Below are positions 46,213 through 63,328 of a DNA stretch of 64,000 nucleotides, piece after piece (position 1 is the first letter of the stretch; every line of letters begins with the position of its first letter). The notes under the pieces were generated by a model. That model did not search any database. It was not told the DNA's origin and saw only the letters and a list, made by a program, of their open reading frames with translations. The translations under genes and the position numbers were made by a program. The DNA is from Halobacterium sp. DL1 (lineage in GTDB: Archaea; Halobacteriota; Halobacteria; Halobacteriales; Halobacteriaceae). The stretch covers positions 806,001 through 870,000 of the forward strand of contig CP007060.1 in NCBI GenBank assembly GCA_000230955.3, read 5' to 3'.

Positions 46213-46562
46213 GGCCCGGGGTTCGCGCTCCTCCGTGTTGCGTGTTTTCCTCTGGATGATTGCTTGGTGGTTCCTGGGCTACAGACTGAGACGACGTTGG
46301 AATCACTCAGAAAGGGGCGGCTGTCTGGATTCGGGAGGCTCGCTGCGCGCTTCACTCGCTCCGCTCGTTCCAGTGCTTGTGTCGCCTGCCTTCGTCCAGA
46401 CAGCCGCCCCTTTCAGTCCCGCCCGCTACCGGCTGGCCACCTGGCCTGGGTGGACTGAAAGGGGCGCCGTGCTCGCAAGCACCCCCTGGTAAAACGCACT
46501 AACTCGCAACTACGGACACCTGTAAACGGTTAAGTGGCGACGCACGCGACTCCCTACACGCA
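46213..46562. other. 350-base intergenic region with nested inverted repeats
   Basis: No gene. Three related segments occur: A (46310-46329), B (46395-46419) and C (46452-46466). A is a perfect reverse complement of 46395-46414 (20 bases) and C of 46405-46419 (15 bases), so B can pair with either. A GTGCT-CGCA-AGCAC hairpin follows at 46469-46482. TGTAAACGGTTAAGTGG (about 46520-46536) is the TATA region of the next gene. Confidence 0.75.
46310..46466. repeat. Nested inverted-repeat element (A-B-C)
   Basis: Arm A GAAAGGGGCGGCTGTCTGGA and arm B TCCAGACAGCCGCCCCTTTC are perfect 20-base complements separated by 65 bases. B's right part CGCCCCTTTCAGTCC pairs perfectly with C GGACTGAAAGGGGCG. The A-B and B-C pairings share ten bases and exclude each other, as in a two-state RNA switch or a cruciform. 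Confidence 0.75.
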
Positions 46563-47264
46563 ATGAGCGACCTCCCGGACGACTTCAAATGCACTATCAC
46601 CAACTGGGAGTACATCTACGGACTCTGCCGGGACGTCAGCGACGAGGTCAAGCGCTCCGAGTTCGAACCGGACGTGGTCGTCGCCCTCGCCCGCGGCGGC
46701 TGGTTCGCGGGGCGCTGTCTCTGTGACTTCCTCGGGCTGAACGACCTGACGAGCCTCAAGATGGAGCACTACGTCGGGACCGCCCAGAAGTCCGGCGAAC
46801 CCGAGGTCCGCTACCCGATGCCGGAGGGGTCGGTCGCGGACAAGGACGTGCTCATCATCGACGACATCGCGGACACCGGTGGCTCAATCGAGACCGCCTA
46901 CGAGTACGTCCAGGACCGCGAGGCCAACGAGATCCGGACCGCGACCCTGCAGCTACTCCAGACCAGCGAGTTCGAACCCGACTACGTCGGCGAGCGACTC
47001 GAACAGTGGGCGTGGGTCGTCTACCCGTGGAACTTCATCGAGGACATGGTCGACATCATCTCCGGCGTGATGGAGACGGACGGCGACGGCCCCTACTCGA
47101 AGGCCGGCATCCGCCGCCTGCTCGCGGAGTACCACGACGTCGAGCGCATCGAGATGGAGATCGCCCAGCCCGACCGCCTCGACGAGGTGCTGGCGGAGAC
47201 GGTCCGCCGCGACGTACTCGTGGAGGCGGGCGACGCGGAGTGGGCGCTCGCGGACGATGCCTGA
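46563..47264 (+). CDS. Purine-type phosphoribosyltransferase
   Basis: 233 residues from ATG 46563. The type I PRTase PRPP loop is VLIIDDIADTGGSI (96-109); VVVALARGGWFAGRCLCDFL gives the pyrophosphate-binding turn. Length and sequence match archaeal purine (xanthine/hypoxanthine) phosphoribosyltransferase-like enzymes that salvage bases using PRPP; exact base specificity is not clear. The C-terminal 90 residues (FIEDMVDIISGVMETDG, RRLLAEYHDVERIEMEIAQP) form an added helical domain typical of the haloarchaeal form. It overlaps the HD gene by 8 bases. Confidence 0.88.
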   Translation: MSDLPDDFKCTITNWEYIYGLCRDVSDEVKRSEFEPDVVVALARGGWFAGRCLCDFLGLNDLTSLKMEHYVGTAQKSGEPEVRYPMPEGSVADKDVLIIDDIADTGGSIETAYEYVQDREANEIRTATLQLLQTSEFEPDYVGERLEQWAWVVYPWNFIEDMVDIISGVMETDGDGPYSKAGIRRLLAEYHDVERIEMEIAQPDRLDEVLAETVRRDVLVEAGDAEWALADDA

Positions 47265-47847
47265 GGACGTCGAGGCACTTCTCACGGCCTACCGGCTGAA
47301 GGACGAGGGCCGGACCGGCTGGCAGTTGCGGAACGTCGAGGATCCCGAGTCGGTCGCCGGGCACTCGTGGGGCGTCGCGCTGCTGACGCTGGCGTACGCC
47401 GGCGACGCGGGTGTTGATGCCGACCGGGCACTCCGCCTCGCGGTCCTCCACGACGTCGGCGAGGCAGAACTCGGGGACGTGCCGACGCGCGCCGACCCCG
47501 ACCACCAGCCCGACGTCTCGCCCGAGGAGAAGGAGCGACGGGAACGCGAGACGGTCGAGACGCTGGCGGGCGCGCTCGGCGACGACGTGCTCGCCGACTG
47601 GACGGCCTACGAGGAGCGCGAGACGCCGGAAGCGCGCTTCGTGAAGGACATGGACCTCGTCGACATGTGCGTGCAGGCGCTGTACTACGAGCGCGAGGGC
47701 CGCTACGACCCGGACGCCGACGACGCGTTCACGGAGTACGATAGGCTGGACGAGTTCTTCGCGACCGCGGAACCGCGGCTCTCGACGGCCGTCGGCCGCG
47801 ACCTCTTCGACCGACTGCGGGCGGCCTACGAGGACGCCAAGCAGTAG
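47257..47847 (+). CDS. HD-domain 5'-deoxynucleotidase-like hydrolase (YfbR type)
   Basis: 196 residues from ATG 47257, inside the end of the PRTase gene. Metal ligands are VAGHSWGVALL (His), VLHDVGEAELGD (HD) and the later Asp in DMDLVDM; the YfbR/HDDC2 family dephosphorylates deoxynucleoside monophosphates. The 8-base overlap and the downstream MTA phosphorylase suggest a nucleotide-salvage unit. An Asp/Glu-rich middle (DHQPDVSPEEKERRERETVE) matches the family's variable loop. Confidence 0.85.
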   Translation: MPEDVEALLTAYRLKDEGRTGWQLRNVEDPESVAGHSWGVALLTLAYAGDAGVDADRALRLAVLHDVGEAELGDVPTRADPDHQPDVSPEEKERRERETVETLAGALGDDVLADWTAYEERETPEARFVKDMDLVDMCVQALYYEREGRYDPDADDAFTEYDRLDEFFATAEPRLSTAVGRDLFDRLRAAYEDAKQ

Positions 47848-62670: not shown

Positions 62671-62964
62671 TTACTCCGTCTGGACCGGCCCGATGCCGAC
62701 CGCGTCCTCGAGGGCCTGCACGAACTCCCGGCGGGTCTCGAAGTACGTGATGTCGACGTCAGCGAGCACGCTCTCGATGGTCTGTGGCCCGTCGGGCGTC
62801 CTGACGACCGTGTCGCCCTCCCGCCGAACGATCTCGCTCTTCTGGAGCGCCCACGTCAGCCGGGACGCGACTCGCGCTATCGGGGCGCCCTCGACGGACT
62901 CGCCCTCTCCGAGTTCGACGGCGGGCGCGTCCTCCTCCTCCTCCTCGTCGTTCTCGTCAGCCAT
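62671..62964 (-). CDS. DUF5789-like acidic protein (97 aa)
   Basis: 97 residues from ATG 62964. Acidic lead (MADENDEEEEEDAPAVELGE), then a folded core APIARVASRLTWALQKSEIV, RREGDTVVRTPDGPQTIESV, DITYFETRREFVQALEDAVG. The pattern of a helix-turn-helix-like core with F(E)xRxEFxxAL is that of haloarchaeal DUF5789 family members (assignment tentative). Function not known; possibly DNA- or membrane-associated. Confidence 0.75.
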   Translation of the reverse strand: MADENDEEEEEDAPAVELGEGESVEGAPIARVASRLTWALQKSEIVRREGDTVVRTPDGPQTIESVLADVDITYFETRREFVQALEDAVGIGPVQTE

Positions 62965-63328
62965 GTCCGCGGCTTCGAGCGGCCGTGGATTCAACCTTTC
63001 GAAGCACTCCGCCCCGTGAACTGATGGATTGCTCCGGATGGTACCCGGTAAGCGAGTCACCGTTTCTGCTACTGACCGCTAGATGGAGACTACCCAGAAC
63101 GCCCCGGCACGCTCGCGCCCGCTCGCCGGCACATCCGCTCGCTCGGCTCGCTCACGGACAGGGGCCGCCGAGGCGACCACGCAAGCGCGGGCGTGTCGCC
63201 CCTTTCAGTCCCACCCGTGGTCGGCTGGCCAACTGCCGTCAATGGCGCCCTGTTGCTGGCCAGCTCTTGGCGTGAAACTCTCCAACGTCTGACGTAGTGT
63301 TTTTAGGGTGGCCGCACAATGACCGCCC
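62965..63328. other. 364-base intergenic region with a copy of the CCCCTTTCAGTCCC repeat
   Basis: No gene. Bases 63197-63231 (CGCCCCTTTCAGTCCCACCC to GGCTGGCCA) match 46405-46439 with a few differences. GCTGGCCAGC (63255-63264) is a palindrome. GTGTTTTTAGGG at 63298-63309 is the TATA region of the following gene, 20-31 bases before its ATG. Confidence 0.6.
63197..63231 (+). repeat. Dispersed repeat, second copy
   Basis: CGCCCCTTTCAGTCCC is identical to 46405-46420; the continuation CCCG and GGCTGGCCA is shared with small changes. The A and C arms of the first locus are missing here. Confidence 0.6.

Follow-up and report, generated by a model that had tools for sequence, protein, structure and literature searches.

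Among the features of the 64-kb stretch of DNA analysed here (hereafter, the window) are three short complementary segments, A, B and C, located in the 350 bp between two genes, the second of which is a gpt-like phosphoribosyltransferase gene. They are listed below with their surroundings and with a related copy found further along the window.

46310-46419, + strand: hairpin unit (arm 1), with its GAAAG-end, variable stem, conserved inner loop and GCCCCTTTCAGTCC end (covariance model R1, folds and alignment)
46310-46329, + strand: segment A, forming the left end and the 5' arm of the stem; its sequence is GAAAGGGGCG, the family form being GAAAGCCCCG
46395-46419, + strand: segment B, 3' stem arm and conserved GCCCCTTTCAGTCC end (inverted-repeat search and alignment)
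46452-46466, + strand: segment C, inverted partner of B and start of a lost second unit
46467-46489, + strand: probable remnant of the second arm, holding GCAAGCACC, with segment D missing (by comparison with full copies)
46519-46540, + strand: promoter-like block of gpt, CCTGTAAACGGTTAAGTGGCGA, conserved in all 13 genomes of the genus; putative promoter
46563-47264, + strand: gpt-like phosphoribosyltransferase gene, a neighbour only (ORF; function as named in the original prediction)
63097-63211, + strand: second, divergent copy of the unit (locus L029, C1:868700, i.e., window position 62700)

Both pairings put forward in the original prediction were recovered exactly. Segment A (46310-46329) pairs with B (46395-46414) over 20 of 20 nt (100%), the two being 65 nt apart, and B (46405-46419) pairs with C (46452-46466) over 15 of 15 nt (100%), 32 nt apart. 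Nowhere else in the 64-kb window do perfect inverted repeats of at least 15 nt lie within 150 nt of each other; the window holds 7 perfect inverted-repeat seeds, against a mean of 0.28 and a maximum of 4 in 100 dinucleotide shuffles. Further downstream, ARAGORN called a tRNA-Ile at 47381-47462, within the ORF that follows gpt, which is probably a false positive.

The segment turned out to be repeated. A blastn search with the 350-bp intergenic stretch gave 34 matches in the genome that carries the window (hereafter, the home genome), and GGACTGAAAGGGGC, with at most one mismatch, occurs there at 33 sites, against 1 for the reversed control. We built a covariance model, R1, from 24 of the 32 home-genome units found by script, the other 8 being left out of the alignment (A1) for their nested inserts or deviant loops. 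R1 matches the home genome 41 times and scores arm 1 of the window copy at 116.3 bits (C1:852310-852419). Matches to R1 were present in 24 of the 30 genomes of the relatives search, home genome included, with 1 to 92 copies each, and a pattern scan of public genomes returned at least 120 stretches; among the matches listed (80), all titles are haloarchaeal. Four haloarchaeal plasmid records hold a match, which is intergenic in the three annotated ones examined. Carriage by viruses or phages was considered and rejected, one strict pattern having 0 exact matches in viral contigs and the repeat unit having no match in phages. At two other sites of the home genome, where the flanks stand about 360 nt apart, several congeners have just 30-69 nt between the same flanks, and other congeners hold longer, unrelated sequence.

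The unit is a hairpin of about 110 nt with conserved ends and a conserved inner loop, whose stem is different in nearly every copy yet complementary. It runs from GAAAGCCCC through a variable, roughly 13-pair stem, inner helices with the conserved CTCGCTGCG and GTGCTTGCGTC, and the other stem arm, to GCCCCTTTCAGTCC. A full element consists of one such hairpin or, in many copies, of two opposed hairpins around a central arm; a two-unit full copy folds as a cloverleaf in which A:D forms the outer stem and B:C the central arm, the two remaining arms being variable. At three loci of the home genome (L011, L014 and L025), a second repeat of about 60 nt is inserted within the arms of hairpin units; it consists of a pair of small hairpins, GTTCGAAAG..CTTTC and GAGAGAGC..GCTCTCTC, with GTGATGAC between them, and its stems also vary between copies, complementarity being kept. 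Congeners have a second arm type on the same backbone, with CATATCTGCTCGC..GCAGATAG as inner loop (L316, L332 and L317), to which the copy at 63097-63211 of the window looks related.

Compared with such full copies, the copy next to gpt lacks segment D and most of arm 2, the sequence GCAAGCACC downstream of C being one that sits in the arm 2 loop of full copies. Full-length copies do have segment D (GGGGCTTTC), and in their predicted fold A:D and B:C therefore form together. The A:B and B:C pairings had been described as mutually exclusive: they do overlap, at 46405-46414, but the exclusivity does not hold for the element as a whole, where A:D and B:C pair simultaneously. We infer that A:B with C:D, on the one hand, and A:D with B:C, on the other hand, are alternative states of a single four-way junction. 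Perfect A:B pairing is itself private to the window copy among the 24 home-genome units aligned. At the left end, CCC follows GAAAG (once GGAAG) in 23 of these 24 units, and GGG is found in the window copy only; the usual A:B pair thus contains a CCC/CCC internal loop, and A:B is perfect in the window copy because its A end carries GGGG in place of CCCC. In the history that we propose for this copy, arm 2 would have collapsed and the left end would have been “corrected” against B, making A:B perfect.

A purine-responsive or other gpt-specific switch (riboswitch or attenuator), operating through exclusive A:B or B:C pairing, has in its favour the location of the segment and its perfect, overlapping pairings. 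It meets several obstacles, however. The gpt orthologue was found in 13 of 13 genus genomes, and the repeat element is absent upstream of it in the 12 of 12 others (by eye); G008 has the same two genes side by side, with a short element-free gap between them. What all 13 genomes do keep, shortly upstream of the gpt start codon, is a TGTAAAC(C/G)GTTAAGT block (by eye). This promoter-like block lies downstream of, and separate from, the repeat element, between the latter and the gpt start, so that the element is probably outside the gpt mRNA, as judged from the order of the sequence features. Rfam gave no credible family at A-B-C, its best overlapping match reaching 19.7 bits for a cut-off of 98. 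The element also exists in dozens of copies elsewhere, and the perfect A:B pairing is confined to this one copy. We rejected a riboswitch or attenuator of gpt on the basis of the congeners, the downstream block and the Rfam result, and consider any gpt-specific switch extremely improbable. Of the options that had been offered for the segment, “some mobile-element ends” was near the mark, whereas a transcription or translation switch and a purine-linked regulatory RNA find no support in a multi-copy repeat that is absent at congeneric gpt loci. Regulation of gpt is unnecessary for explaining the A-B-C segment.

The stems were then compared between copies. Among 109 units, we counted 104 distinct 12-nt stem starts. 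In the home-genome alignment, both partners vary in 20 of 31 pairs, and 95.9% of cells are paired, against 72.8% after shuffling and 36-45% with slid partners. The class-wide figures are 24 of 31 pairs and 95.0% (108 matches, with an alignment fitted to the model); 22 of these 108 matches, largely low-scoring, truncated or interrupted by inserts, were left out of the comparison of unit anatomy and of the stem and gene-context counts, and L091, which has an arm in the other orientation, was also dropped before the stem-pair counts. A covariance search had been proposed as a check of the original prediction, and strong covariation is indeed present, but it tracks the repeat and not the gpt gene. 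In the main stem of the 109 units, 1308 of 1381 positions are Watson-Crick, the others being 8 G-T, 30 A-C and 35 of other kinds. The asymmetry between G-T and A-C on the unit strand (8 vs. 30, n = 38, two-sided binomial p 0.0005, for sequences that are not independent) is an excess of A-C that becomes G-T on the opposite strand; it could reflect folding of a single strand, be it of RNA or DNA, or a mutational bias. In the stems of 29 tRNAs of the same genome, 28 of 625 pairs are wobble pairs (paired cells only).

As for the gene context, overlap with genes predicted by a simple gene caller did not exceed 30 nt in 70 of 73 elements. Their neighbours are divergent in 21 cases, tandem in 39 and convergent in 4, compared with 59, 87 and 21 for gaps of at least 100 nt (p 0.29); an apparent avoidance of convergent gene pairs disappeared against these background gaps.

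The limits of the element were not visible in the home genome, whose copies show no clear terminal repeats; they were found by comparing copies in Halonotius roseus and in a group of Halobacteriales MAGs, according to where the similarity stops. The ends are inverted repeats, GG(T/C)NGTGTTCAGATAAG, located 39-52 nt outside the unit; the IS6-type ends of hairpin elements are also written GGTNGTGTTCAGATAAG. From end to end, the element measures about 205 bp with one hairpin and about 330 bp with two. One of the 73 elements had too little flank and was omitted from end scoring. A score of 11 out of 15 or better was reached at both ends by 11 of the other 72 elements, and at one end by 2 of 400 random 90-nt stretches, the motif coming partly from the same loci; the other 61 class-wide elements are without recognisable ends on both sides by this score, although recognisable ends are found at L050 and L059 too, beyond the 11. 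Exact 8-bp flanking duplications surround 4 of the 72 elements (L125, L147, L115 and L148), as well as L059 by eye. Flanking direct repeats around single-hairpin elements, when tested with wrong ends assumed, were not found. At L125:4375-4493, there is also a 119-bp copy with IS6-type ends whose hairpin is missing, the deletion falling precisely at the base of the stem. The exact 8-bp duplication at L148:5288-5403 surrounds variant ends (GGTCGTGTTTGG / GGTGCTGTTTGG), which suggests that the same hairpin is carried by different IS6 end types.

Genome G021, which has 92 hairpins, links these ends to a transposase. There, the same ends come in about 17 pairs with a spacing of 688 bp, and the 688-bp copy examined encodes a 212-aa IS6-family transposase (NF033587, 9.5e-58; PF13610), with near-identical proteins at other G021 end pairs. 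These ends also delimit IS6 copies in other genomes, where 3 of 14 loci show exact 8-bp duplications by eye, and the G021-type transposase was matched in 11 of 16 genomes. In G021 itself, the paired exact terminal repeats are all IS-sized and none is located at its 92 hairpins. The home genome gave 0 matches to the G021 transposase and no exact TNTTCAGATAAG, and the IS6 link therefore reaches it by homology to other species only: demonstrated for a subset of elements in other species, the link is an extrapolation for the remaining copies, and a past or lost source of transposase is possible for the home genome. The hairpin element is short, non-coding, multi-copy and devoid of a transposase of its own, as is a MITE. 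Copies would spread as MITEs mobilised in trans by IS6-family transposases, and inserted copies would persist long while their ends decay.

One has to weigh this MITE reading against three others that concern the family as a whole. The strong covariation, the conserved inner loop and the asymmetric wobble-type mismatches are what a dispersed family of structured non-coding RNA genes could leave, the RNA being the complement of the unit strand. Against it, copies per genome range from 0 to 92, arms occur in both orientations and are swapped between sites, and paired units occupy opposite strands; moreover, wobble pairs amount at best to 30 of 1381 positions, which is rarer than in the tRNAs of the same genome (paired cells only), and the A-C asymmetry could equally be mutational. 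RNA genes are, in our opinion, rather unlikely. An element of the REP/REPIN kind, moved in single-stranded form by a Y1 (IS200/RAYT) transposase, would also present hairpins, inverted pairs, intergenic sites and a possible strand preference, all of which recall REP doublets. No PF01797 match was found, however, in four genomes rich in copies, namely G021 (92 copies), G007 (43), G025 (66; 81% complete) and G012 (27), whereas G006 has 2 PF01797 matches and no repeats, and the 8-bp duplications and inverted ends of the subset favour a DDE transposase. Y1/RAYT mobilisation is disfavoured by these four genomes, and we regard this origin as very unlikely. Finally, the repeat may have been domesticated as a promoter-near DNA element, such as an insulator or a binding site for a nucleoid protein or regulator, for which a cruciform would be useful. 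The near absence of overlap with predicted genes and the long persistence at orthologous sites speak for it; the gene context, however, is like that of other intergenic gaps, and presence differs among close species, so that domestication appears unlikely to us. In the reading that we prefer, A-B-C represents a truncated member of a haloarchaeal non-coding, intergenic, dispersed repeat family that spread as an IS6-moved MITE and whose arms are exchangeable, and we give this reading a probability of roughly 0.7.

Several known systems resemble the repeat in part. Parvovirus flip/flop terminal hairpins and integron attC sites combine a palindrome with two invertible inner arms, their structure being kept while the sequence varies; the likeness to our repeat would be one of shape only. 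Haloarchaeal IS6-family elements have terminal repeats of the form GG[TC][AG]GTGTTCAGATAA and 8-bp duplications, as do some copies of our repeat, but they carry a transposase gene, and the single copy examined showed no hairpin unit. The haloarchaeal MITEs described in PMC3119063 are non-coding and moved in trans by a transposon. Our repeat is like them in being short, non-coding and present in many copies, a subset of which shares terminal inverted repeats and duplication length with a full transposon; it is unlike them in its stem, which varies per copy yet stays complementary, in its one or two arms exchanged between sites, and in the fact that most copies, including the one in the window, are without recognisable ends. 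SMR-A of Haloquadratum walsbyi is similar in its size of about 110 bp, its prominent inverted repeats, its dozens of copies and its frequent location inside other elements. SMR-A is, however, reported to make no target duplication and to be directed at PATE/IS605 palindromes, and this description sets it apart from our repeat, subsets of which have 8-bp duplications and IS6 ends (PMC3119063). REP/REPIN sequences (PMC3733652) are likewise intergenic hairpins occurring as singles and inverted doublets, in families that differ by complementary stem changes, but they measure 20-40 nt instead of 110 nt for our unit and go with RAYT, while our repeat has no link to a Y1 transposase. MITEs of Halobacterium salinarum are named without sequence in PMC10264941, and our family may be identical with one of them. 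In the open-licence literature, we found no description of the hairpin repeat family; the core letters of the unit appear in 6 papers, and the title of none of these is archaeal. Relative to the MITE kind, exchangeable arms are an unusual feature.

Evidence for this exchange comes from orthologous sites. The comparison of flanks gave 17 orthologous-site groups in which the element is present in two to five species, and the arms were compared in a set of 105 units from 45 sites and 11 genomes. For 50 of the 69 arms with an orthologous-site partner, the nearest relative is at another site, and for 19, it is at the same site. The median best-arm identity is 0.68 for 42 orthologous pairs vs. 0.63 for the 2099 others; since 8 of the 42 orthologous pairs reach at least 0.85 (21 of 2099 for the others), some arms are vertically inherited. 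At site A, for instance, G012 has an arm that is 95% identical to one found in G011 at site J. Between G000 and G010, arm 1 and the centre are common at site A, with arm 2 replaced and the loop reversed, and at the L017 site, the whole element is inverted; arm 1 there shows a single compensated change of a stem pair, whereas the second arm is unrelated. We infer that ectopic conversion or hairpin-templated repair accounts for the replaced and flipped arms; through either, arms would keep being exchanged between copies, and the exchange would be anchored in the conserved GAAAGCCCC / GCCCCTTTCAGTCC blocks. Independent or repeated insertion at the same intergenic site is a less probable explanation. 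With arm exchange, the hairpin repeat is likely a MITE family with exchangeable arms. Going further, we tentatively propose, at somewhat less than even odds, a class-wide modular haloarchaeal MITE that occupies fixed intergenic sites while its arms are copied between sites and flipped, complementarity being renewed by replacement or templated correction of whole hairpins and not by stepwise compensatory mutation.

If this is true, the false lead of a switch is removed at the window locus, where none is needed for gpt, and a repeat of many haloarchaeal genomes would document in nature how hairpins are exchanged between chromosomal sites. Near-perfect covariation would then have an origin at the DNA level, able to mimic RNA structure, and strong covariation among dispersed repeats need not imply a functional RNA. 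The family would also offer a way into the processing of long palindromes by archaea and into the IS6-driven spread of non-coding DNA.
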